The position numbers were made by a program, and so were the translations under genes. From contig JAHITY010000049.1 of assembly GCA_018817165.1 (NCBI GenBank), positions 1-37,178 on the forward strand: DNA of 37,178 nt, given 5' to 3'. Source of the DNA: Candidatus Omnitrophota bacterium. GTDB lineage: Bacteria; Omnitrophota; Gorgyraeia; B26-G9. Positions 131-36,510 of this stretch are shown here, in pieces; position 1 is the first letter of the stretch, and every line of letters starts with the position of its first letter. The notes beneath the pieces were generated by a model that saw only the letters and a program-made list of their open reading frames with translations, did not search any database and was not told the origin of the DNA.

Positions 131-1058
131 GGTCAGCCTGTTGAAACTTGACAAAGAGAGATGGTTGCAGTAAAATTAAAATATGACAAGACCGTTACGT
201 ATAGAATATGAAGGAGCAGTTTATCACGTTACCTCTAGAGGTAATGCTAGGGAACCTATCTTTGGAGATAACAAAGATAGGTTTATTTTTTATAAGATAC
301 TATCCGAGGCTAAGAAAAAATATAATATTATATGTCATGGCTATTGTTTAATGGATAATCATTATCATTTAGTTATAGAAACCCCCGAAGGGAACTTAAG
401 TGTGGCAATGCGGTATATAAATGGGGTGTATACCCAAGATTTTAATCGCAAACATAATAGAGTAGGGCATATTTTTCAAGGTCGATATAAGGCTATTTTG
501 ATAGAGCGGGAAGAATATTTATTAGAAGTAACTAGATATGTAGTTTTAAATCCAGTTAGGGCTAAATTAGTAAAGAGTCCTGAGCAATGGGAATGGAGTA
601 GTTTTAGCGGGACGGCGGGAAAGGAAAGAAAAGAGGAATTTCTTGATATAGATTGGATATTAGGAAATTTCGGAAATACAAAAGATATAGCACAAAAATT
701 ATATGTTAACTTTGTGAAAGAAGGAATAAATGAAGAATCGTTTAAAATTAAGATGAAGCGGCAAAATATTTTGGGAAGTGATGATTTTAAACAAAAGCTC
801 TCCAAAAATATCGAAGGTAAAAAAACAATAAAAGAAATTTCAAAGAAACAACGCTATATTGGGCGGCCTAAAATAGAGGATATATTTAATATACTCGGAA
901 CCGAAAAAAGAAAAGAAAAAAGGAATGATTTGATTAAAAAAGCAGTGATGGAATATGGTTATCAGCAGAAAGAAGTAGCGCGAATATTAGGAATGCATTA
1001 TGCTAGCATTAGTAAAATTTTAATAAGAAAAAAGGCTGAATTTCAAGACCTGACCCCG
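131..1058 (+). mobile_element. Candidate RAYT element with degenerate terminal inverted ends
   Basis: Left GGTCAGCCTGTTGAAACTTGAC (131-152) resembles the reverse complement of right TTTCAAGACCTGACCCC (1041-1057); the right end is inside the last codons (…FQDLTP*). Confidence 0.45.
148..182 (+). promoter_or_regulatory. Candidate leaderless sigma70-type promoter of RAYT 1
   Basis: TTGACA (148-153), 17-nt spacer, TAAAAT (171-176), 6 nt, ATG at 183; predicted +1 is the A of ATG. Confidence 0.6.
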
Positions 1059-1061
1059 TAA
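183..1061 (+). CDS. REP-associated (RAYT) / IS200-like Y1 transposase with C-terminal helix-turn-helix region
   Basis: Motifs YHVTSRGNAREPIF, YCLMDNHYHLVIETP (HxH), GHIFQGRYKAILIE, YVVLNPVRAKLV, WEWSSF are typical of Y1_Tnp RAYTs; C-terminal VARILGMHYASISKIL resembles an HTH. Confidence 0.92.
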   Translation: MTRPLRIEYEGAVYHVTSRGNAREPIFGDNKDRFIFYKILSEAKKKYNIICHGYCLMDNHYHLVIETPEGNLSVAMRYINGVYTQDFNRKHNRVGHIFQGRYKAILIEREEYLLEVTRYVVLNPVRAKLVKSPEQWEWSSFSGTAGKERKEEFLDIDWILGNFGNTKDIAQKLYVNFVKEGINEESFKIKMKRQNILGSDDFKQKLSKNIEGKKTIKEISKKQRYIGRPKIEDIFNILGTEKRKEKRNDLIKKAVMEYGYQQKEVARILGMHYASISKILIRKKAEFQDLTP

Positions 1062-8286: not shown

Positions 8287-8299
8287 AGAAGGCCACAAT

Positions 8300-8394
8300 G
8301 TAGGGGCCGCGCTTGCCTCGGCCCGTAATAATATACAATTATCAAAAACCAATGAAATCATTAATAAACGGGCGCAGGCAAGCAGCGCCCCTAC
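8300..8394 (+). repeat. REPIN-like inverted doublet, copy 2
   Basis: Near-identical to 7314-7408, with shared tail TTTCTAAAATTATTTGAATTATATAAAAATCAACG downstream. Confidence 0.92.
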
Positions 8395-8462
8395 AATTTC
8401 TAAAATTATTTGAATTATATAAAAATCAACGTGGTAACGCGCAAACGCGGGAACATCAAAGC

Positions 8463-12616: not shown

Positions 12617-13147
12617 ATGATTGATCTGTATATTTTACTTATTTTAATGATTATTGGCGCTGTGCTGGCTTTGGAGATCAAAGACCTGCTTTCCGCGGTT
12701 ATTATTACCGGAGCAGTCGGTTTATGCTTATCCGCGGCTTTTCTTTTGCTCAAAGCTCCTGATTTGGCCATGACTCAGCTGATTGTGGAAATTGTCTTGG
12801 TGATTATTCTGGTGCGGGCAACGATTTTTACAGATTCGCGAGTCCAGCAGACTAAAAGAAATTATGCGAATTTTATTGCTGTATTAATCAGTATTAGCTT
12901 TTTTTTAGGAGCATCCGGGTATGTGATTGCCAAGCTGCCGATCTTTGGCAAGCCTTTAATGCGGATCAGCCGGACATATTTAAGTGAGGCTTTGTCGCAA
13001 GCAAGTGTTAATAATGTTGTGGCGGCAATAACTTTAGATTATCGCATTTTTGATACTTTTTTGGCATTGGTCGCATTATTTACTTGTCTTATCGCGATAA
13101 TGGCTCTTTCTAGAGCGAAAAGCAAAGAACAGAAAACAAATTTCTAA
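12617..13147 (+). CDS. Fused MbhD/MbhE-like antiporter subunit (equivalent to the MrpA C-terminal part; DUF4040)
   Basis: DLLSAVIITGAVGLCLSAAFLLLKAPDLAMTQLIVEIVLVIILVRA (DUF4040-like) then NNVVAAITLDYRIFDTFLALVALFTCLIAIMAL (MbhE-like). Confidence 0.85.
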   Translation: MIDLYILLILMIIGAVLALEIKDLLSAVIITGAVGLCLSAAFLLLKAPDLAMTQLIVEIVLVIILVRATIFTDSRVQQTKRNYANFIAVLISISFFLGASGYVIAKLPIFGKPLMRISRTYLSEALSQASVNNVVAAITLDYRIFDTFLALVALFTCLIAIMALSRAKSKEQKTNF

Positions 13148-13267
13148 TTACTAATTTCTAAACTCTAAATAAACTTAAATGACTAAAGCCAAAAACATAA
13201 AAAGAAAAATTGATAGAGAAAAAGCTAACTAGAGAAAACAAATAACTTTAGAAGATAAATATAGATA

Positions 13268-13765
13268 ATGAAAAATAAAACGAATAATAAAATTAAACAT
13301 AAAACAAAAATACCGGATAATCCGCAAGCTGAGCAGGGAATGAGCATTATTGTCAAGACGGTTACTCGCTTGACAGTGGGGGTGCTGTTTGTTTATGGGA
13401 TCAATGTAGCTTTACATGGTCATATTATTCCCGGCGGTGGTTTTGCCGGTGGGGCGATCATTGCTTTGTCTTTATTGAATCTGGTATTGGCTTTTGGCCG
13501 AGACGCTGCTTTAGAAAAATTAAGCCAAACCTGGGCAATAATTTTCACCACTCTGGGTTTGCTTTTATTTATGGTTGTCGGCTTATTCGGCAATAATAAT
13601 ATTCCAATTTTAGCAAACTTTTTTCAGGATAAAGGTTCAATCCTTAGTTTGTTTTGCATCGGCAATATTCCTTTGCTGAATATCGCGGTTTGTTTGCAGG
13701 TCGGCGCGGGAATTTTTGTTATTTTTATTTATTTGGTTTCGATTAAGCCGGAGGCAGATAAGTAA
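13268..13765 (+). CDS. Mrp/Mnh antiporter subunit B
   Basis: VLFVYGINVALHGHIIPGGGFAGGAIIAL is the MnhB signature region. Confidence 0.9.
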   Translation: MKNKTNNKIKHKTKIPDNPQAEQGMSIIVKTVTRLTVGVLFVYGINVALHGHIIPGGGFAGGAIIALSLLNLVLAFGRDAALEKLSQTWAIIFTTLGLLLFMVVGLFGNNNIPILANFFQDKGSILSLFCIGNIPLLNIAVCLQVGAGIFVIFIYLVSIKPEADK

Positions 13766-14127
13766 TGATTTATTTTTTATGTTTTATCTTATTCTCAATC
13801 GGAATATATGGGGTGCTGGTCAAAAGAAATATAATTAAATTAATTATCAGCACAATGATTTTGAATTATGCCGTGTATATTTTATTAGTGCTTATGGGCT
13901 TTAGATGGCAAGGCCAGGTCCCGGTATTTGTTTCTGATCAGGAGATTAATTTTATGGTTGATCCTTTACCGCAGTCAATGGTAATGGTGGCAATGATCGT
14001 CGGCTTGGCGGTAACTGCTTTACTTGTGGCTGTGGCAATGCGCTTGTACCAGCAATTTAAAACATTTGATATTAAAGAGATAATTGAAATTAAAACTAAA
14101 AAACCAGAAGTAGATAATAATGCCTGA
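13765..14127 (+). CDS. Mrp/Mnh antiporter subunit C (NuoK-like)
   Basis: Three-TM protein with VDPLPQSMVMVAMIVGLAVTALLVAVAMRLY; gene order. Confidence 0.9.
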   Translation: MIYFLCFILFSIGIYGVLVKRNIIKLIISTMILNYAVYILLVLMGFRWQGQVPVFVSDQEINFMVDPLPQSMVMVAMIVGLAVTALLVAVAMRLYQQFKTFDIKEIIEIKTKKPEVDNNA

Positions 14128-15658
14128 TATTCAACAAATTATTCCTTTATTTATTTTAATCCCACTATTGGGGGTATTTCTTTTGGCATTATTTGCCAGA
14201 AAAAAGAATTTCTATGCTGATCTGATTTTATTTTTTATTGTATCCGGATTGTTGCTGCTCAGTGGATGTTTGTTTGTGTTTAAAACCAAGGCTTTAATTC
14301 ATGTGTATTGTTTAGCCGGCTGGCACCTGCCGGAAGCGATTACTTTTATTGTCGATGGCTTGGCGGATTTTTTTCTGGTAAGTGTTTATTTGATGACTTT
14401 TTGTATTATGCTTTATTGTCTGCGGTTTATTGATCATTGGACAAGCAAGTGGAAATTCTATGCTTTATTTTTGCTGCTGTTAACCGGAGCCAATGGAGTT
14501 ATTATCAGCGGAGATCTGTTTACCTTATATTTATTTATGGAAGTTACGGCTATTGCCAGCTATGCTTTGATCTGTTTTTCTTTAGAGAAAAAGGCTTTGG
14601 CTTTTGGGTTTAAGTATATGATCAAAGGGATAATGGCTTCAGCGATAATTTTCCTAGGCATTATTATCTGCTATTGTTTTACTTCAACGCTTGCTTTGGC
14701 GGATATTGCTAATCAGCTTTATCTCCGCCAGCATATTGCGGCTGATCCGGCAATGGGTTGGGTGGTTTTATTTATTCAGGCTTTACTTTTTATCGGGTTC
14801 CTGATCAAGTCCGGGATTGTTCCGTTTAATTCTTGGGTATCTGAGATGAATCAATCAATCCTCGCACCGGTGGGGGCAATGCTGCTGGCGATAATTATTC
14901 CGGTATTAGGAATATATCCTTTTTTAAGAATTCATTTTAATATTATTGGCCCAAGTCCCGAGAGTTTAGCAATTGTCCGCATATTTGCCATGGCGGCGAT
15001 GTTAGGATCATTGTTTTGGGCATTTAAGCCTAAAAACAGCAATCAAGCGATTGCTTATTATACGATCAGCGAATTTGGTCTGGTTATTTTAGCCATGGCA
15101 ACTAATACGCCTTGGGCAATTTACGGAGGGTTTTTACAGCTGCTGCATATTCAGATTACCGCGGCATTGGTGACTTGTAATGCGGGTTTGCTTGATTACC
15201 GGATCTATCCAAAAAAATCGCTAGATCAATTAACTTTTAGTTTTAAATCCAGCCCCAAAGCTTTTATCATGACAATGCTCAGCAATGCGGCATTTATTAG
15301 CCTGCCGCCATTTATTGGTTTTTGGAGCAAGCTGATCATAATTGTGGCTGTCTGGAAAGCGAATTATCATCTGTACGCGATTGGCGTATTGTTAATAGTC
15401 TGTTTCGCCGCAGGATTATTTATTAAAAACCAAAAGAAGTTGCCAGTAAAAAACAGTGATTTTCAGTCTGATTTTAAATTAAACAAAATTAAATTTTCGA
15501 TGGCCGGAGCTTTGCTGCTAATGTTGGGTTTATGTTTAGGTCTTAATCTGCTTTTAGCAACAGAGTATAAAGAGACTTTTTTAAACCCAGCGATTGATAC
15601 TATTCTTTCGACAACAAAATATTCAAAAGCGGTTTTTAAGGCGGAAAATGAAAAGTAA
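14120..15658 (+). CDS. Mrp/Mnh antiporter subunit D (NuoM/N-like)
   Basis: Multi-TM NuoM/N-like protein (GDLFTLYLFMEVTAIASYALI, IKSGIVPFNSWVSEMNQSILAPVGAMLLA). Confidence 0.9.
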   Translation: MPDIQQIIPLFILIPLLGVFLLALFARKKNFYADLILFFIVSGLLLLSGCLFVFKTKALIHVYCLAGWHLPEAITFIVDGLADFFLVSVYLMTFCIMLYCLRFIDHWTSKWKFYALFLLLLTGANGVIISGDLFTLYLFMEVTAIASYALICFSLEKKALAFGFKYMIKGIMASAIIFLGIIICYCFTSTLALADIANQLYLRQHIAADPAMGWVVLFIQALLFIGFLIKSGIVPFNSWVSEMNQSILAPVGAMLLAIIIPVLGIYPFLRIHFNIIGPSPESLAIVRIFAMAAMLGSLFWAFKPKNSNQAIAYYTISEFGLVILAMATNTPWAIYGGFLQLLHIQITAALVTCNAGLLDYRIYPKKSLDQLTFSFKSSPKAFIMTMLSNAAFISLPPFIGFWSKLIIIVAVWKANYHLYAIGVLLIVCFAAGLFIKNQKKLPVKNSDFQSDFKLNKIKFSMAGALLLMLGLCLGLNLLLATEYKETFLNPAIDTILSTTKYSKAVFKAENEK

Positions 15659-16142
15659 AATTGTTTTATTTTTATTTTGTTTGATTATTTGGCTGGGTTT
15701 AAATTGGCCGGTTAATTCGCAATGGCTGGTAGCCGGTGTTTTGGTCAGCGGCTTTGTGGCCATGATTACCGGAGATATATTTATGCATCGGCCGCATATT
15801 ATTGTCCATATTAAGCGTTATTTATGGTTGTTTGTATATTTGATTGTTTTATTGATCGAGGGAATTCGGGCGAATATTGATCTGGCTTACCGGGTTTTGC
15901 ACCCTGATTTACCGATAAATCCCGGGATTGTTAAGATAAAAACAGAGATTAAAACCGAAGTGGGTTTGACTTTATTAGCAAATTCAATTACATTTTCTAC
16001 CGGAGCTTGCGCTGTGGACATTGATCAGCAAAAAGGCTATATTTATGTGCATTGTTTGGATGTGGAAAGTCAAAATATAAAGGCAGCAACTGAATTAATT
16101 GCCGCCAGGTTTGAAACAATTCTTAAAAAGGTTTTTGAATAA
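15648..16142 (+). CDS. Mrp/Mnh antiporter subunit E
   Basis: MnhE pattern …LLIEGIRANIDLAYRVLHP…PGIVKIKTEI…VGLTLLANSITFSTGACAVDI. Start moved to ATG 15648. Confidence 0.88.
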   Translation: MKSKIVLFLFCLIIWLGLNWPVNSQWLVAGVLVSGFVAMITGDIFMHRPHIIVHIKRYLWLFVYLIVLLIEGIRANIDLAYRVLHPDLPINPGIVKIKTEIKTEVGLTLLANSITFSTGACAVDIDQQKGYIYVHCLDVESQNIKAATELIAARFETILKKVFE

Positions 16143-16502
16143 ATGAAAACAAATAAAAATGGTTTTGATCAAAGATTAGTCTGGTTCATTACCAGCATTT
16201 TATTAAGCATGCTGGTTTTGCTGATTTTTATGTTACCGGGAGCGTTTTTAAGCAAAATTTTATTCTTTTTATTATTATGCTGTTTGAGCGCCTTGATTCG
16301 GGTGTTTGTCGGGCCAACTGCGGCTGATCGGGCTTGCGCGATTACAATTATGGGCATGATGGTAATTGGCTTTTGCGGAATTTTAGCTGTATTTACCCAA
16401 AAAAACTGGTATTTAGACATTGCTTTTATCTGGGCATTGCAGTCTTTTATTGTTGCTTTAAGCCTAGCAAAATTTCTCGAAGGTAAGAGGTTTGATCAGT
16501 AG
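16143..16502 (+). CDS. Mrp/Mnh antiporter subunit F
   Basis: RVFVGPTAADRACAITIMGMMVIGFCGILAV is the MnhF/MrpF signature. Confidence 0.88.
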   Translation: MKTNKNGFDQRLVWFITSILLSMLVLLIFMLPGAFLSKILFFLLLCCLSALIRVFVGPTAADRACAITIMGMMVIGFCGILAVFTQKNWYLDIAFIWALQSFIVALSLAKFLEGKRFDQ

Positions 16503-16698
16503 AAATACAACTAATGGTCGATAGCTAATAGTCAATAGTAAAAAGTAAAAGTAAAAAGTAAAAAGTAAAAAGCTATACTCTATAAGTTAGATTGTCGATG
16601 ATCAATAGTTAGTAGTTTTTTAGTAATTAGTCATTTGTTCTTAGTTTTTGGCTATCAGCCATGAGCTATGAGCCATTAGTTATACAGAGGGGTTTATT

Positions 16699-17058
16699 AT
16701 GCCGGAAATAGGGCGTTTACTGATTATCATTGGTTTGTTTTTTAATTTTATCGCTATTCTTAGCTTAATCCGCATGCCGGATGTTTATACCCGGCTGCAG
16801 TCAGCAGCAAGAAGCGTAACTTTGGGTACTGGCAGTATTATGCTCAGTGTTTTTGTTGTTCATGGGTTTAGCGCTACTGGTTTTAAAGCTTTGTTTGTAA
16901 TTGCTTTTCTGATTTTGATTTGTCCGGTTTGCGTGCATGCTTTGGCAAAAGGCGCGTATCAAAGTAAGGTTAAATTAGCCGAAGATTCTGTTTGTGATCA
17001 GTATCAGGAAGATCTGAAGGCCAAGCAGAATCAGGCAGATACAACTCCAAACCTCTAG
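16699..17058 (+). CDS. Mrp/Mnh antiporter subunit G
   Basis: LLIIIGLFFNFIAILSLIRMPDVYTRLQSAARSVTLGTGSIML is the MnhG signature. Confidence 0.9.
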   Translation: MPEIGRLLIIIGLFFNFIAILSLIRMPDVYTRLQSAARSVTLGTGSIMLSVFVVHGFSATGFKALFVIAFLILICPVCVHALAKGAYQSKVKLAEDSVCDQYQEDLKAKQNQADTTPNL

Positions 17059-17159: not shown

Positions 17160-17402
17160 ATGCATGAAGTGGGAATAGCCCAGGATATAATCAATTCTGT
17201 GTTCAAACAACTGGAAGCGCATGATTATAAGCGCGTGAGTAAAATCAAACTCACGGTCGGAGATTTTAATTTAATCACTCAGGATTCTTTGCAGAGCTGC
17301 TTTGATCTATTGGCGGAAAATACCAAAGCCCAGGGGGCTGTTTTGGAAATCGAACAGACACAGGGTATGGAAATTGAAATCAACCACATTGAAGCCGAAT
17401 AG
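17160..17402 (+). CDS. hypA: HypA-like nickel metallochaperone, 80 aa, lacking the zinc-finger domain
   Basis: MHEVGIAQDIINSVFKQ…KIKLTVGDFNLITQDSLQSCFDLLAENTKAQGAVLEIE matches HypA; the normal CxxC…CxxC segment is absent and the protein resumes at a HypA-like tail (TQGMEIEINHIEAE). Confidence 0.8.
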   Translation: MHEVGIAQDIINSVFKQLEAHDYKRVSKIKLTVGDFNLITQDSLQSCFDLLAENTKAQGAVLEIEQTQGMEIEINHIEAE

Positions 17403-17406
17403 TCTG

Positions 17407-18558
17407 ATGCCGATTCAAGTTGATTTAGCTGAGTTTGCAGCTAAAGCTAAAGTGATTTTAGCTTTAGGGGCGGAGTTAAAAGCTAATTACACTATCTTAA
17501 ATAAGCAGAAAGCTTATTTGTATGCTGGATTTGATGATCTGAAAAATCCCGAATTTTATAATAAATACAGACAAAGTATTCTCAGTGAAATAAAGCGATT
17601 AAAGATTAAACCGCAGATTATTACCCATGATCTGAATCCCCTGTTTCTCAGCTCAAGGTTAGCGGAAGAACTGAATAATTCGCTGTTTAAACAAAGCCGG
17701 GTTATGCCAATTCAGCATCATTTTGCTCATATTGCCGGTGCTTGTGCTGCTCTGGGCTTGAAAAAACAAAAAGTTTTGGGCATTGCTTGCGACGGTACAG
17801 GCTTGGGCAGTGATGCTAAAGTCTGGGGTTGTGAGTTTATCAGCTATGATTTTAAGCAGGCAATTCGTTTAGGCCATCTGGGATATATTCCTTTACCCGG
17901 GGGAGATAAAGCCGTAGCAGAGCCTTGGCGCGTGGCAGTTGCTTTGCTGCATATGGTTTATGGTCAGCAAATGCTTGATCTACCGATTGCTTGGATAAAA
18001 CAAAAAAAATACGAGATTAAGATTCTGATCCAAATGATTGAACAGGGGATTAATACGCCTTTAGCTTCCAGCGCGGGCCGATTGTTTGACGGGATCAGCG
18101 CTTTGATTGGATTGTGCCTAAATGTGAATTTTGAAGCTCAGGCGGCAATTGCTTTAGAAAACCAGGCCAGCAAAGCAATTTCTCTTGATAATAAAGCTTA
18201 TAGTTTTGCGATAAACAAACAAGACAAGATGTTTGTTGCGGATATTCGCGAAATGATCAAACAAATTGTTCAAGATATCCAAGATAAGCAGACGATTGCA
18301 CATATCGCGGCGAGGTTTCATAATACTTTTGTTCTGATTCTAGGTAAGATGGCTGTAAAAATAAGCCAGCAGGAAAAAACTGATCAGATTGTTTTGGGTG
18401 GGGGAGTGTTTTTTAATAAAATCATTTCCGAAAAACTAAATGCTTATTTAGTTAAACGCGGATTTACGGTGCACATACCTCGCCAGGAATTTTTGTCAGA
18501 TATTGGTTTGTCTTTAGGTCAGGCAGTACTGGGGGCCCGAATCTCAGCTAATAAATAA
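17407..18558 (+). CDS. hypF: HypF C-terminal (Kae1-like carbamoyltransferase) domain only
   Basis: ILALGAELKANYTI, PQIITHDLNPLFLSSRLAEEL, QHHFAHIAGACAALGL, GIACDGTGLGSDAKVWGCEF, IVLGGGVFFNKIISEKL. No acylphosphatase, zinc-finger or YrdC regions. Confidence 0.85.
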   Translation: MPIQVDLAEFAAKAKVILALGAELKANYTILNKQKAYLYAGFDDLKNPEFYNKYRQSILSEIKRLKIKPQIITHDLNPLFLSSRLAEELNNSLFKQSRVMPIQHHFAHIAGACAALGLKKQKVLGIACDGTGLGSDAKVWGCEFISYDFKQAIRLGHLGYIPLPGGDKAVAEPWRVAVALLHMVYGQQMLDLPIAWIKQKKYEIKILIQMIEQGINTPLASSAGRLFDGISALIGLCLNVNFEAQAAIALENQASKAISLDNKAYSFAINKQDKMFVADIREMIKQIVQDIQDKQTIAHIAARFHNTFVLILGKMAVKISQQEKTDQIVLGGGVFFNKIISEKLNAYLVKRGFTVHIPRQEFLSDIGLSLGQAVLGARISANK

Positions 18559-18797: not shown

Positions 18798-19016
18798 ATG
18801 TGTATTGGTATTCCCGTAAAAATAAAAAAAATTGATGGGCTTACTGCGATTGCCAGTGCTGGCGGGGCAGAAAGAAAAATCGGGATTGATCTGACTCCGG
18901 ATGTTAAAGTCGGGGATTATGTGCTTTTGCATGCTGGATTCTCGATTGAAAAAATCGATGAGGCTGACGCAAAAGAAACTTTGAGATTGCTGAATGAGAT
19001 GTATAAAGATCGGTAG
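18798..19016 (+). CDS. hypC: HypC hydrogenase maturation chaperone
   Basis: MCIGIPVKIKKIDG with Cys2; VGDYVLLHAGFSIEKIDEADAKETLRLL. Confidence 0.93.
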   Translation: MCIGIPVKIKKIDGLTAIASAGGAERKIGIDLTPDVKVGDYVLLHAGFSIEKIDEADAKETLRLLNEMYKDR

Positions 19017-19019
19017 CGA

Positions 19020-19158
19020 GTTAACGCGTTGATTTTTATATAATTCAAATAATTTTAGAAATCGTAGGGGCGCTGCTTGCCTGCGCCCGTTTATTAATGA
19101 TTTCATTGGTTTTTGATAATTGTATATTATTACGGGCCGAGGCAAGCGCGGCCCCTAC
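19020..19158 (-). repeat. REPIN-like inverted doublet with tail, copy 3 (inverted orientation)
   Basis: Doublet core 19064-19158 is the reverse complement of copies 1/2; tail GTTAACGCGTTGATTTTTATATAATTCAAATAATTTTAGAAAT at 19020-19063. Confidence 0.92.
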
Positions 19159-19181
19159 CTTGTGAGAGATTTAGGAAAAAC

Positions 19182-20282
19182 ATGAAATACATTGACGAAT
19201 TTAGAAATCCAAAATTAGCCAAACAGCTGATCAAGCTTATTCATAAACTCGCGGCTCAGCTGGATAAACCAATATCAATCATGGAAGTATGCGGCTCGCA
19301 TACTGTGGCGATGTTTCGCTATGGGATTCGTAAAATATTGCCGGATAATATCCGAGTAATTGCCGGACCTGGCTGTCCGGTTTGTGTGACTTCTCAGGAA
19401 GATATTGACCGGGCTATTGGAATTTGCGAATATCCGGATACGATTATTACAACTTTTGGCGATATGATCAAAGTCCCGGGAACAAAAACAACTTTGCGGG
19501 ATATTCAAGCTCAGGGCCGGGATATCCGAGTGGTTTATTCGACTTTAAACGCGCTGGATTTTGCCAGAGAAAATAAACAGAAAAAAGTAATTCATATTGC
19601 TGTGGGTTTTGAAACAACTATCCCCACAGTTGCCGCTGCAGTTCAGCGGGCCAAACAGGAAAAGCTAAATAATTTTTTTGTTTTGTCTTCGCATAAGATC
19701 ATTCCTCCGGCTTTAAAAGTCCTGGTGGCTTCACCGAAAAGTGAAATCAGCGGTTTTCTTTTGCCCGGACATGTAAGTACAATAATCGGCTCAAAGCCTT
19801 ATGAGTTTTTAGTTAAAAAATATAAAATACCCTGTGTTATTGCCGGGTTTGAAGCTTTGGATATTCTCCAATCAATTGTGATGCTGCTCAATCAGCAGAT
19901 AAACAAACAGCCAAAGGTAGAAATGCAGTATGCTCGTTGTGTAAATGCTCAAGGAAATCTGGTAGCGCAGAAAATGATCGCGCAAGTATTTAAAGTCAGT
20001 GATGTGCAGTGGCGGGGATTGGGTTTAATGAAAAAAAGCGGCTTGATCCTTAGGCCGGAGTACAAAGCATTTGATGCTCTGCGGCATTTTCCGGTAAAGG
20101 TTCCTAAAACTAAAAAAACCGCTTGCCGCTGCGGGGATGTCCTTCAGGGGATAATTAATCCAACGCAATGCGTTTTATTTAAGAAAATCTGTAATCCGAG
20201 TATGCCCATCGGGCCTTGTATGGTCTCATCTGAGGGCGCATGTTCGGCTTATTATCGCTATGGAGGCAAACGCAATGGATAA
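19182..20282 (+). CDS. hypD: HypD hydrogenase maturation protein
   Basis: MEVCGSHTVAMFRYGIRKILP, GPGCPVCVTSQEDID, GFETTIPTVAAAV, CRCGDVLQGIINPTQCVLFKKICNPSMPIGPCMVSSEGACSAYYRYG. Start 19182 preferred over the repeat-derived 19113. Confidence 0.96.
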   Translation: MKYIDEFRNPKLAKQLIKLIHKLAAQLDKPISIMEVCGSHTVAMFRYGIRKILPDNIRVIAGPGCPVCVTSQEDIDRAIGICEYPDTIITTFGDMIKVPGTKTTLRDIQAQGRDIRVVYSTLNALDFARENKQKKVIHIAVGFETTIPTVAAAVQRAKQEKLNNFFVLSSHKIIPPALKVLVASPKSEISGFLLPGHVSTIIGSKPYEFLVKKYKIPCVIAGFEALDILQSIVMLLNQQINKQPKVEMQYARCVNAQGNLVAQKMIAQVFKVSDVQWRGLGLMKKSGLILRPEYKAFDALRHFPVKVPKTKKTACRCGDVLQGIINPTQCVLFKKICNPSMPIGPCMVSSEGACSAYYRYGGKRNG

Positions 20283-21291
20283 GGGAAAGATTACGCTGGC
20301 TCACGGCAATGGCGGGCAAGTAATGCAAAAGCTGATCAATAAAATGATAATTACTAATTTTGGTAATCCGATCCTTAATCGGCTGGATGACGGCGCAGTC
20401 CTTGATTTAAAACCCAGCAATAATAAATTAGTGTTTACGACTGATTCTTTTGTGGTTGATCCGATTTTTTTCCCGGGCGGAGATATCGGGAAATTAGCGG
20501 TTTGCGGAACAGTTAATGATCTGTCAATGATGGGCGCAAAGCCATTGTATTTAAGCGCTAGTGTGATCATTGAAGAAGGCTTTGCCCTAGCGGATCTGCA
20601 GAGAATTATTATTAGTATGAAAAAAACTTTGGCTTTGGCTGATCTGAAAATAGTTTGCGGTGATACCAAAGTGGTGAATAAAGGCCATTGTGATAAGATC
20701 TTTATTAATACCAGCGGGATCGGGATAATTCAGGCTAAGGCAAAAATAACTTCGAGCAATGCGCGTCCCGGAGATTTGATTATTGTTAGCGGGACAATCG
20801 GCGAACATGGGGTTTCGATCATGTCGCAAAGAGAAGGCCTTAAGTTTAAAACTCAATTAAAAAGTGATTGCGCTCCTTTAAATGGTTTGGTTAAGGATAT
20901 GTTAAAATACGCGGACGCGATTCATGTGATGCGTGATCCGACTCGCGGCGGGGTGGCCACGGCTTTAAATGAAATCGCGGAGCATTCGAATGTGGGTATT
21001 GAGATCAATGAGGAAAATTTGCCGGTTAATTCCCAAGCTCAAGGAGCTTGTGAGATATTAGGCTTGGATCCTTTGTATTTGGCTTGTGAAGGCAGATTAC
21101 TGGCTTTTGTCGCGCCAAATAAAGCCGCGGATATTATTAAAGTAATGCGTAAAAATCAATTTGGCAAAAAAGCCCAGATCATTGGTAAGGTTGTTGCAGG
21201 GCATAAGAAACAGGTTTATTTGAGTACCTTAGCCGGCAGTGACCGAATATTAGATGTGCCAATCGCGGATCAAATGCCGAGAATTTGTTAA
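20275..21291 (+). CDS. hypE: HypE hydrogenase maturation protein
   Basis: LAHGNGGQVMQKLI, DDGAVLDL, CGDTKVV, MRDPTRGGVATALNEIAEHSNVGIEI; ends in canonical …PRIC. Confidence 0.96.
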   Translation: MDKGKITLAHGNGGQVMQKLINKMIITNFGNPILNRLDDGAVLDLKPSNNKLVFTTDSFVVDPIFFPGGDIGKLAVCGTVNDLSMMGAKPLYLSASVIIEEGFALADLQRIIISMKKTLALADLKIVCGDTKVVNKGHCDKIFINTSGIGIIQAKAKITSSNARPGDLIIVSGTIGEHGVSIMSQREGLKFKTQLKSDCAPLNGLVKDMLKYADAIHVMRDPTRGGVATALNEIAEHSNVGIEINEENLPVNSQAQGACEILGLDPLYLACEGRLLAFVAPNKAADIIKVMRKNQFGKKAQIIGKVVAGHKKQVYLSTLAGSDRILDVPIADQMPRIC

Positions 21292-21303: not shown

Positions 21304-21398
21304 GTAGGGGCCGCGCTTGCCCCGGCCCGTAATAATATATAATTATCAAACACCAATGAAATTATTAATAAACGGGCGCAGGCAAGCAGCGCCCCTAC
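21304..21398 (+). repeat. REPIN-like inverted doublet, copy 4
   Basis: Near-identical to copies 1-3, same tail downstream to about 21440. Confidence 0.92.
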
Positions 21399-21489
21399 GA
21401 TTTCTAAAATTATTTGAATTATATAAAAATCAAAGCGCAAACGCGGAACGCAATACTGAAAACAAAAAATGTTTTTTTTGGAGGGATGA

Positions 21490-26045: not shown

Positions 26046-27350
26046 ATGGAAACTTTTAAAGGTGGACAACATATAGACGGTTTTAAATACTTAAGCCGGG
26101 AAATGGCAATAAAAATCATGCCATTACCCAGCCAAGTTATTATTCCTTTGAGTCAGCATACTGGAGCGGTTTGTGAACCAGTTGTGAAAAAAGGGGATAT
26201 GGTTAAAACCGGGACAATGATCGGAACCAGTGATAAACTTATTTCCAGTCGGATCCATGCCAGCATTTCCGGCGTGGTTAAAGACATTGTTGAGTATAAT
26301 CATCCGGTATTGGGACAATCAAAGGCTGTGATAATTGATTCTGATGGAAAGGATACTTTAGACAGTTCTATTGTAAAAAGAACTAAAATTGAAGAACTTT
26401 CCAAAGAACAGCTTTTAGAGATTATTAAAAACGCGGGGATTGTCGGCTTGGGCGGAGCAGCGTTTCCCGCGCAGGTAAAGTTAAACCCTTTAAAACCAGT
26501 TGATACTTTATTAATCAATGGCGTTGAGTGTGAACCTTATTTGACTTGTGATTATCGCCTGATGCTTGAGCATACGCATAGTATTCTTAAGGGCATTGGT
26601 TTAATGCAAAAAATTATTGGAGTTGAGCGGGTTGTTATTGGTATTGAAGAAGATAAGCAGGAGGCAATAAAACTTTTACGTAATAAATGTGTGGAGAAAA
26701 AATATGATATAGAGATAGTTTGTTTAAAAGCAAAATATCCTCAAGGCGCGGAAAAACAGCTGATCAAAGCAATTCTTGATCGGGAAGTGCCCAGCGGTAA
26801 ACTGCCTTTTGATGTGGGCGTTATTGTGAGTAATGTCGGTACGGCTTTTTCTCTATTTGAAGCGGTTTATAATGCAAAGCCATTATATGAAAGAGTGGTA
26901 ACGGTAACCGGCAAATGTTTAAAACAGCCGTCAAATTTAAAAGTGAGGATTGGAACGAGATTTAAAGAGCTGATTGATTTTTGTCAGGGCTTTAAGGAAG
27001 CTCCGGGAAAAATTATTATGGGCGGACCAATGATGGGGATCAGTCAGTATACTGACGATGTGCCGGTTATCAAAGGAACTTCCGGGATATTAATTTTAAG
27101 CCAAAAAGAAGTGGATGAGTATACGCAGGGCGCTGATCAGCCTTGTATCCGCTGCGGACGCTGCGTTAATATCTGTCCAGTTGGCATGTTGCCTTATGCT
27201 TTGAGTTTGTGTGTAGAAATGGATAGACTGGATAAAGCAGCGCAATATAATCCTTTTGACTGTATTGAATGCGGGACTTGTACTTATGTTTGTCCGGCGA
27301 AAAGACAAATTTTATCAGGGATACGTTTAATAAAGGCGGTAACAAGATGA
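26046..27350 (+). CDS. rnfC: Rnf complex subunit C
   Basis: GLGGAAFPAQVKL, LLINGVECEPYLTCDYRLMLE, CIRCGRCVNICPVGMLP…CIECGTCTYVCPAKRQI. Confidence 0.94.
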   Translation: METFKGGQHIDGFKYLSREMAIKIMPLPSQVIIPLSQHTGAVCEPVVKKGDMVKTGTMIGTSDKLISSRIHASISGVVKDIVEYNHPVLGQSKAVIIDSDGKDTLDSSIVKRTKIEELSKEQLLEIIKNAGIVGLGGAAFPAQVKLNPLKPVDTLLINGVECEPYLTCDYRLMLEHTHSILKGIGLMQKIIGVERVVIGIEEDKQEAIKLLRNKCVEKKYDIEIVCLKAKYPQGAEKQLIKAILDREVPSGKLPFDVGVIVSNVGTAFSLFEAVYNAKPLYERVVTVTGKCLKQPSNLKVRIGTRFKELIDFCQGFKEAPGKIIMGGPMMGISQYTDDVPVIKGTSGILILSQKEVDEYTQGADQPCIRCGRCVNICPVGMLPYALSLCVEMDRLDKAAQYNPFDCIECGTCTYVCPAKRQILSGIRLIKAVTR

Positions 27351-28333
27351 GTGAAAAAAACACTAGTGTTGATTTAGCGATTACCAGTTCTCCGCATATT
27401 CGTGCAAAAGAAACTACAGCCAAAATCATGTGGAGTGTTACGCTTTGTTTGATTCCTTCTGGTTTGGTCAGCATATATGCTTTTGGCCTATCAGTTTTAT
27501 GGATAATTTTAACTTCAATTGTTTGCGCTATGGCCAGTGAATGGCTGTTTAATTGTTATCTGCAAAAAAAGCCGAACAGTTTAATGGATGGCAGCGCAGT
27601 GCTTACTGGTTTGCTTTTAGCTTATAATCTGCCGGCCGGAGCGCCGTTGTGGATGGCTGGTTTAGGTTCTTTTGTGGCGATTTTATTTGGCAAAGTAGTG
27701 TTTGGTGGTTTAGGATTTAATATTTTCAATCCCGCCTTAATCGGCCGAGTTTTTTTAATGGCTAGTTTTCCGGTTTTAATGACTCGCTGGCCGGCGCCGT
27801 TTAAAGTTGACGCGATTACTGCACCTACACCTTTGGCTGTGTTTAAAGATGGCTTTAGCGGTTCGCCGATACTTAATCCCAGTGAAATAATACATTATTC
27901 TTATTCGGATTTGTTTTTAGGTCTGCGCGGCGGATGTATTGGTGAAGCCAGTGTCTTAGCGCTGTTGCTTGGCGCGAGCTATTTAATGTTTAAAAAATAT
28001 ATATCTTGGAAATTACCGCTTAGTTTTGTCGCAACTGTGGGTATATTTACTTGGATTTTTGGCGGAAGCAGTTTCTTTAGCGGTGATTATATATTACATA
28101 TTCTTTCCGGTGGGCTTATTCTGGGCGCTTTTTACATGGCCACTGATTATGTTACCGGACCAGTTACAATCCAGGGCCAGATAATTTTTGGTATTGGCTG
28201 CGGAATTATTACCAGTATTATCCGCTTGTGGGGAGGATATCCCGAAGGAGTATCGTATTCAATTCTCTTAATGAATATGGGAACGCCATTGATTGACCGC
28301 TTTGTTAAACCAAAAAGATTTGGAGATAAGTAA
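27347..28333 (+). CDS. rnfD: Rnf complex subunit D (NqrB/RnfD family)
   Basis: SSPHIRAKETTAKIMWSVTLCLIPSG, GKVVFGGLGFNIFNPALIGRVF, flavinylation-like DAITAPTPLA, MATDYVTGPVT. ATG 27347 overlaps the rnfC stop. Confidence 0.92.
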   Translation: MSEKNTSVDLAITSSPHIRAKETTAKIMWSVTLCLIPSGLVSIYAFGLSVLWIILTSIVCAMASEWLFNCYLQKKPNSLMDGSAVLTGLLLAYNLPAGAPLWMAGLGSFVAILFGKVVFGGLGFNIFNPALIGRVFLMASFPVLMTRWPAPFKVDAITAPTPLAVFKDGFSGSPILNPSEIIHYSYSDLFLGLRGGCIGEASVLALLLGASYLMFKKYISWKLPLSFVATVGIFTWIFGGSSFFSGDYILHILSGGLILGAFYMATDYVTGPVTIQGQIIFGIGCGIITSIIRLWGGYPEGVSYSILLMNMGTPLIDRFVKPKRFGDK

Positions 28334-29127
28334 TGAAAGCAATTCTACTGGGCGTTATGGCCTTATCAGGTCTTGGCCTTGCATTTGGCGTATTACTGGC
28401 TTGGGTCTCAAAAAAATTTCATGTACAGATTGATCCTCGGATAGAAAAAGTGGGGGAGCTATTGCCGGGCGTTAATTGCGGCGCTTGCGGTTTTGCTGGT
28501 TGTTTGGGCTATGCTGAAGCTCTAGTGAATAAAACAGCTACTTTGGCCGGCTGTCCGGTTTCTACTGCTGATACTAAAAAGCAGATTGCTCAGGAGCTTG
28601 GGGTATGTGATGTTGATCTGCACAGGGTTACTCCATTAGCAGTTGTTGCCTGCGGCGGGGGAATCAGGGCAAAAGACAAGTTTAAATATCAGGGCTTAGC
28701 AGATTGCCGGGTAGCGGTTAAAACCATGGGCGGGCCGAAAAACTGTAAATATGCCTGTGTGGGGCAGGGAACATGTGTTACGGTTTGTCCGGTTAACGCG
28801 ATCAGTATGCAGGCTGATGGGCTTCCATTGATCAATCCTGATCTTTGCGTCGGCTGCACTAAATGTGTTGCGGTTTGTCCGAGCAATATAATTTATATGC
28901 TTGACCGCAAGAAAAAAGTTTATATAAAATGCCGTTCGCATGATAAGGGCGCGCAGGTAATGAAAAACTGTAAATCCGGATGTATTGGCTGCATGAAGTG
29001 CGTTAAAGAATGTCCGGTTAAATGCATTACAATTGTTGATAATCTGGCTGTAATTGATCATGAGAAATGTATTAATTGCAAGAAATGCGTTGCTGTCTGC
29101 CCGACAAAATGTATTGCTGTTTTATGA
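28333..29127 (+). CDS. rnfB: Rnf complex subunit B (multi-cluster ferredoxin)
   Basis: GVNCGACGFAGCLGYAEALV; multiple CxxCxxCxxxCP motifs (CVGCTKCVAVCP, CIGCMKCVKECP, CINCKKCVAVCP). Confidence 0.93.
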   Translation: MKAILLGVMALSGLGLAFGVLLAWVSKKFHVQIDPRIEKVGELLPGVNCGACGFAGCLGYAEALVNKTATLAGCPVSTADTKKQIAQELGVCDVDLHRVTPLAVVACGGGIRAKDKFKYQGLADCRVAVKTMGGPKNCKYACVGQGTCVTVCPVNAISMQADGLPLINPDLCVGCTKCVAVCPSNIIYMLDRKKKVYIKCRSHDKGAQVMKNCKSGCIGCMKCVKECPVKCITIVDNLAVIDHEKCINCKKCVAVCPTKCIAVL

Positions 29128-35838: not shown

Positions 35839-36510
35839 ATGCCTAGGCACGCAAGAATTGTCATACCAAATACAGCGCATCACATAACCCAGCGAGGCAA
35901 CTATCGTCAAACCATTTTCGATAGACAAGAAGACTATATTCAATATTGTGAATGGCTGGACAAATATGCGCAGGAAAAGAGTTTAGAAATAATTGCATAT
36001 TGCTTGATGAATAATCATGTTCATTTTATTGTTGTACCCAAAAAAGAACAAGATTTAGCAGAAGTATTTAAGATCGTGCATATGAGGTATTCGCATTATA
36101 TAAATAAGCAAAGAGCCGCAAAAGGGCATCTATGGCAGGGAAGATTCTATTCTTGTATCTTGGCAGACGATCATTTGTATAGAGCAATAAGATATCTTGA
36201 AAATAATCCTGTTAGAGCTAAAATTGTAAAACAGGCATGGGAATATGAGTGGTCCAGCGCTAAATACCATGTAGGGCATATGAATAATAGGCCGCTAATA
36301 AAACTTGTAAATTATGAAGCTGTTGATCACGGAGAACAATGGCGGGAATATTTGCAGGAAGAAGATATTCAAATGACTGAAGAGATGAGATTAAAGACTG
36401 AACGAGGATTAGCAATAGGCACTGAAAAATTTATAAAGAAATTAGAGAGCACATTAAATCGTTCGCTGAAATGTGTAAATCAGGGAAGACCGAAGAGTAA
36501 GAATAAATAA
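35839..36510 (+). CDS. REP-associated (RAYT) / IS200-like Y1 transposase
   Basis: HHITQRGNYRQTIF, YCLMNNHVHFIVVP (HxH), GHLWQGRFYSCIL, YLENNPVRAKIV, WEYEWSSAKYH. Confidence 0.93.
   Translation: MPRHARIVIPNTAHHITQRGNYRQTIFDRQEDYIQYCEWLDKYAQEKSLEIIAYCLMNNHVHFIVVPKKEQDLAEVFKIVHMRYSHYINKQRAAKGHLWQGRFYSCILADDHLYRAIRYLENNPVRAKIVKQAWEYEWSSAKYHVGHMNNRPLIKLVNYEAVDHGEQWREYLQEEDIQMTEEMRLKTERGLAIGTEKFIKKLESTLNRSLKCVNQGRPKSKNK

Follow-up and report, generated by a model that had tools for sequence, protein, structure and literature searches.

A HypA without the zinc domain in Omnitrophota, apparently of several origins and mostly in genomes without detected HypB

Introduction

HypA binds Ni(II) through its N-terminal MHE motif, and its zinc site is regarded as important or even essential for the maturation of hydrogenases and urease, with HypB as the constant partner. 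The zinc module is kept also in HybF. In Thermococcus kodakarensis, binding of HypB brings His98 of HypA to the MHE motif, creating a nanomolar nickel site, and in the complex of HypA with the immature large subunit the nickel sites lie near each other (PMC7055735). Nickel insertion comes before protease cleavage, and under laboratory conditions HypAB can be bypassed by supplying extra nickel (PMC12134894). In Helicobacter pylori, hydrogenase activity is lowered in every zinc-site Cys mutant, to 9-60% of the wild-type level (PMC5557546).

Here we describe an 80-residue HypA from Omnitrophota, a poorly known bacterial phylum, encoded in a stretch of 37,178 nucleotides of one contig that is referred to as the window. 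With HypA/HybF (PF01155, TIGR00100; structures 3a43, 5yxy and 5aun from T. kodakarensis, 6g81 and 2kdx from H. pylori) it shares the MHE motif, the nickel-binding fold, the order of the elements, the last β-strand and the gene neighbours. It differs in lacking the CxxC-Xn-CxxC module (34 columns), in a TIGR00100 score below the cut-off and in that HypB was not found in its own genome. It belongs to a large family, apparently of several origins.

Results and discussion

An 80-residue HypA reduced to the nickel-binding domain

The gene is encoded at 17160..17402 (+) and is translated as MHEVGIAQDI...GAVLEIEQTQGMEIEINHIEAE, 80 aa (P0001; full sequence MHEVGIAQDIINSVFKQLEAHDYKRVSKIKLTVGDFNLITQDSLQSCFDLLAENTKAQGAVLEIEQTQGMEIEINHIEAE). 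Residues 1-69 match columns 1-69 of the 112 columns of PF01155 with 61.9 bits (cut-off 28.9), and TIGR00100 covers the same part with 56.2 bits, which does not reach the equivalog cut-off of 88.1. When the short protein was set against 27 full-length HypA sequences from relatives, the difference was confined to a single block of 34 columns that contains both CxxC motifs. Immediately after this gap the final β-strand is retained, where GMEIEINHIEAE aligns to GDEIILKS.../GKEFYIDNIEIES of full-length HypA. There is no CxxC-Xn-CxxC site in P0001, whose sole Cys is C47, while the N-terminal nickel motif is present (M1, H2, E3) and invariant in alignments A1-A3 (A3 comprising the type-A rows and the window). 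The initial annotation, which read this ORF as a HypA missing exactly its zinc domain, is thus borne out by the profile match and the gap. Its further claim of an in-frame loss with both flanks kept also holds, as the profile, the alignment and the AlphaFold model agree. A frameshift or a 3′ truncation is excluded, the last β-strand being in frame and conserved.

The AlphaFold model, computed with 27 sequences (window and database loci), has a mean pLDDT of 89.8 and contains the elements H2-20, E26-34, H41-52, E61-67 and E72-79. Where full-length HypA has the zinc module, the model shows a tight β-turn of some four residues. In a Foldseek search of the PDB the 14 best matches were all HypA, including HyhL-HypA and HypAB complexes, with TM-scores of up to 0.82 on the query. 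The short protein is therefore predicted to have the fold of the HypA nickel-binding domain. The zinc module of HypA is inserted between the final two strands of this domain; as a short turn joins these strands in the short protein, the domain is predicted to close still after removal of the module.

Conservation and origins of the short form

The nearest relative, a member of the same genus (L047), has an 80-aa ORF at the same place, identical at 70 of 80 residues. The two genes differ at 27 nucleotides, 17 of them in third codon positions (NG86 dN 0.060, dS 0.441), and judged by these substitutions the short hypA is under purifying selection. The same deletion was sought in relatives and was found widely: none of the 55 short sequences of 78-88 aa (window and 54 others) contains a CxxC motif, and they come from independent genomes, near-single-contig assemblies among them. 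In an even sample of the phylum (384 genomes), the HypA match ends near column 59-85 in 66 genomes, counted by hand. What had been taken for a single case is instead a large family with several origins. A protein scan placed short HypA also in metagenome-assembled genomes labelled Elusimicrobiota, Auribacterota, Nitrospirota and Nitrospinaceae, where binning errors are possible; at least five of the six loci have the short hypA following the same hydrogenase protease as in Omnitrophota, and full-length HypA accompanies the short form in five of the six genomes.

A maximum-likelihood tree of 82 HypA sequences, from which the zinc-loop columns had been removed, needs six changes between short and full form, three of which are forced by well-supported branches. 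A single origin was rejected, the log-likelihood being lower by 90.9 when one clade was forced (p-AU 0.0008). The cases are clearest within genus g13 of family f4, where L095 and L096 have the short form and L002, L004, L005, L006, L008 and L011 the full one, and within family f11 (L075 and L079 short; L009 and L020 full). On the evidence of this tree the zinc domain was lost several times in Omnitrophota; the exact number of losses is uncertain, since the tree rests on only 81 columns and has several long branches. None of the open-licence PMC papers found describes a zinc-less HypA family, which is weak evidence, as subscription papers and preprints were not covered.

Genomic context of short hypA

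In the window the short hypA is linked to [NiFe] maturation genes, being followed on the same strand by hypF (C-terminal half), hypC, hypD and hypE. The half HypF (17407..18558, +) starts 4 nt past the hypA stop and comprises only the Kae1-like carbamoyltransferase part (TIGR00143 columns 382-739 of 741; PF17788 and PF22521), with no acylphosphatase, zf-HYPF or YrdC domain detected by Pfam. It is followed by HypC (18798..19016, +; starting MCIGIP; PF01455, 89.7 bits), HypD (19182..20282, +; PF01924, 502 bits; TIGR00075, 495.7 bits) and HypE (20275..21291, +; TIGR02124, 471 bits), whose C-terminus, read from the sequence, is PRIC, the cyanation tail that E. coli HypE also has. Directly upstream of hypA lies a Mrp/Mbh-type cation antiporter cluster of seven ORFs (12617..17058, +; PF00361 at 14120-15655, PF03334 at 16699-17058). 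In relatives this cluster runs on into a group 4 hydrogenase, the protease and the short hypA. As the hydrogenase, ferredoxin and protease genes that accompany the antiporter cluster in relatives are missing next to it here, the window operon could be what is left of a group 4 hydrogenase operon; it may also be an independent antiporter.

In relatives the short hypA mostly follows a hydrogenase maturation protease immediately, and at nearly all loci with a recognisable operon the protease and a [NiFe] large subunit adjoin it. Three types of [NiFe] hydrogenase were found beside it: Mbh-like (group 4) with the Mrp antiporter, HydB-G-S-L sulfhydrogenase-like (group 3-like) and group 1 with a Tat signal. 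These names rest on gene order, motifs and Pfam labels, with no hydrogenase classifier. Where the sequence examined covers them, the large subunits keep the nickel cysteines (RICGIC/RICGVC and DPCxxC). A few loci are without nearby hydrogenase genes (e.g., L040, L072, L076, L095 and L096). Several genomes have two short HypA copies, or one short and one full, which look like operon-specific paralogues. E. coli HybF is likewise a HypA dedicated to one hydrogenase, an arrangement seen here in some genomes either as two short copies or as a short copy in the Mbh/Mrp operon with a full-length one elsewhere; HybF retains the zinc module, whereas the short HypA is without it.

Partners and hydrogenases in the own genome

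The initial annotation had noted that the window contains no hypB, and the absence extends to the whole assembly (143 contigs, 93.45% complete), where TIGR00073 found no match, although a contig may be missing. A second, full-length HypA in the own genome together with decay of this copy in relatives would have refuted the first reading. We found neither: no second HypA was detected in the 93.45% complete genome, and the 55 short sequences keep the architecture, with the low dN relative to dS given above.

No full HypF was found in the own genome, the half in the window being the only high-scoring match of its kind there. The genome does have a stand-alone acylphosphatase (L036) and a Sua5/YrdC protein (L038), which we infer could in principle replace the missing half. 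On another contig a group 1 [NiFe] large subunit is encoded with a small subunit, a protease and a cytochrome c; no genomic linkage ties the short hypA of the window to the hydrogenase that it serves. The genome also contains three matches of [FeFe]-hydrogenase type (G000:C125 58025-58897 and C136 17168-21511). Neither HydG nor HydF exceeded the cut-off there, while a congener (G269) has both, which may reflect either an incomplete assembly or a different source of maturation.

HypB and HypF across genomes

Among 80 genomes examined, HypB was found in 4 of the 54 with short HypA and in 14 of the 26 with full-length HypA only (Fisher p 9e-6, uncorrected for shared ancestry, which confounds the association). 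The GTPase of the HypAB cycle thus went undetected in 50 of 54 short-HypA genomes tested. The coupling is not strict. In two genomes (G141 and G041) the short hypA directly adjoins hypB, by which we reject the notion that zinc loss always goes with HypB loss; in G082 HypB adjoins a full-length hypA copy, and in G136 it lies on another contig. In family f4, conversely, HypB was lost and the zinc domain mostly kept.

HypF is cut to its Kae1-like C-terminal half in about 30 genomes, and in the window the PRIC tail of HypE is kept alongside such a half. Truncation of HypF and loss of the zinc domain as one event was rejected by the mixed combinations across genomes: several with short HypA have full-length HypF, and several with full-length HypA have half HypF. 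The reduction of HypF is independent of the zinc loss.

HydG and a HypC-HydE fusion beside [NiFe] genes

The window operon itself keeps the classical HypC, HypD and HypE with the half HypF. At many other short-HypA loci there is no hypD, hypE or hypF nearby, but a HypC-HydE fusion and HydG are encoded beside the [NiFe] genes. At L050 (8198-11661) the fusion has HypC at residues 1-75 and HydE at 97-405, and HydG scores 444 bits; at L073 (8151-10895) HypC, HydE and HydG are fused in a single protein of 915 aa. The arrangement recurs at L045, L051, L054, L058, L059, L064, L071 and L082-L084. Both HypF and HypD were undetected genome-wide in 20 of the 80 genomes, and 19 of these 20 have HydG over the cut-off. 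In 13 of the 19 neither a true HydF nor an [FeFe]-hydrogenase was detected (G241, G282, G249, G247, G176, G346, G263, G199, G079, G284, G223, G330 and G086), and therefore the sole hydrogenase seen there is the [NiFe] enzyme; the remaining six have HydF, all with an [FeFe] enzyme. In most of the 13, one contig carries the [NiFe] operon with the fusion and HydG next to it. For G199 we have only the genome-wide HydG match, its short-HypA locus (L072) showing no hydrogenase. HypE was outside the genome-wide search, and the genomes are 75-96% complete.

These findings suggest, by comparative-genomic inference only, a hybrid route to Fe(CN)2CO in which HydG and HypC-HydE replace the classical one. 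Whether [NiFe] maturation as a whole has been rebuilt, with a nickel arm free of zinc and HypB and, in some relatives, an iron arm where HydG and HydE (both radical-SAM maturases of [FeFe] enzymes, the latter fused to HypC) stand in for HypD, HypE and HypF, we regard as evenly balanced. If true, tyrosine rather than carbamoyl phosphate would supply the diatomic ligands; the radical-SAM maturase observation, if confirmed, would amount to a second biological route to the [NiFe] cofactor. No description of the HypC-HydE fusion was found in open-licence PMC papers either, again weak evidence that leaves out subscription papers and preprints.

The motif of the HydG auxiliary cluster reads CAACYR in L082-L084 and CTAGYRC in the ten others aligned (L045-L073). 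We dropped the shifted Cys of CTAGYRC as a sign of [NiFe]-specific HydG, as it occurs also in L048, whose genome has HydF.

A probable zinc-free nickel delivery

We consider it likely that the window gene encodes a functional, selected HypA reduced to the nickel-binding domain, which loads nickel without zinc and mostly without HypB; nickel binding and delivery are inferred. The N-terminal MHE would bind Ni(II), the nickel-binding domain would dock on the immature large subunit, and nickel would be handed to a site that already holds Fe(CN)2CO, after which a HycI/HyaD-type protease would cleave the C-terminus. The end point is presumed to be that of the HypAB cycle, nickel in the large subunit before C-terminal cleavage. 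The zinc module may be dispensable because most short-HypA genomes are without detected HypB: with HypB lost, HypA could also shed the portion used for HypB-dependent trapping of nickel and keep the domain by which nickel reaches the large subunit. The nickel affinity expected is weaker, and we can only speculate that it may be enough under anoxia, with ample nickel or where the HypA serves strictly one operon. The H. pylori zinc-site mutants count against this explanation, though their domain is present but misfolded, and the genomes with hypB beside short hypA, together with the HypB-less, zinc-keeping family f4, count against a strict coupling.

The short HypA may alternatively work with an NTPase other than the GTPase HypB, such as an unrelated MinD/Mrp-type ATPase, a possibility to which we give only limited weight. 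It draws on the ATPase-type HypB of some archaea (PMC12134894) and on a cluster of MinD-like ATPases (c38) near two short-HypA loci (L056 and L062). These two are, however, all that was seen among some sixty loci, MinD-like ATPases are common for other reasons, and no partner gene recurs across the short-HypA loci.

That the short HypA was repurposed, for instance as a chaperone keeping the large subunit in an open state up to protease cleavage while nickel enters unaided, seems improbable to us. Its constant position beside the maturation protease would suit such a role, and the lost module is considered essential elsewhere; yet MHE is invariant (type-A rows and window), the predicted fold is that of the nickel-binding domain, and in genomes with a single HypA nothing else was found that could donate nickel to the hydrogenase. 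Zinc-free nickel delivery, itself an inference, fits better than repurposing because in many relatives the short form adjoins [NiFe] structural genes and the nickel-dependent protease. That the short form is an assembly error, or that this copy is decaying while a full-length HypA lies in the part not covered by the 93%-complete genome, is hardly credible: the genome is incomplete and full-length HypA coexists with the short form in five of the six genomes of other phyla, but the same architecture recurs in 55 sequences from independent assemblies and the gene is under purifying selection.

With zinc-free delivery by the reduced HypA as the preferred reading, nickel loading in these Omnitrophota probably works in a simpler way, since the zinc domain appears to have been cleanly lost several times, usually together with HypB. 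A natural family with repeated loss of the zinc module, mostly in HypB-less genomes, separates the needs of nickel insertion (MHE and the nickel-binding domain) from the regulatory parts. If the inferred nickel function holds, its 80-aa member would be a naturally occurring minimal nickel chaperone, of use in experiments and in producing hydrogenases in heterologous hosts.

Other features of the window

An interspersed repeat of 142-154 nt, 93-95% identical, is present at three intergenic sites (8294-8447, 19011-19164 and 21304-21448), with one copy inverted, between hypC and hypD; it yields spurious ORFs that begin MPRPVIIYNYQ. Near both ends of the window (183-1061 and 35839-36510) there are two ORFs that by eye resemble REP-associated (Y1-type) transposases. 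At 26046-29127, with no recognisable RnfG, RnfE or RnfA adjoining, lie ORFs that resemble RnfC, RnfD and RnfB, likewise judged by eye only.
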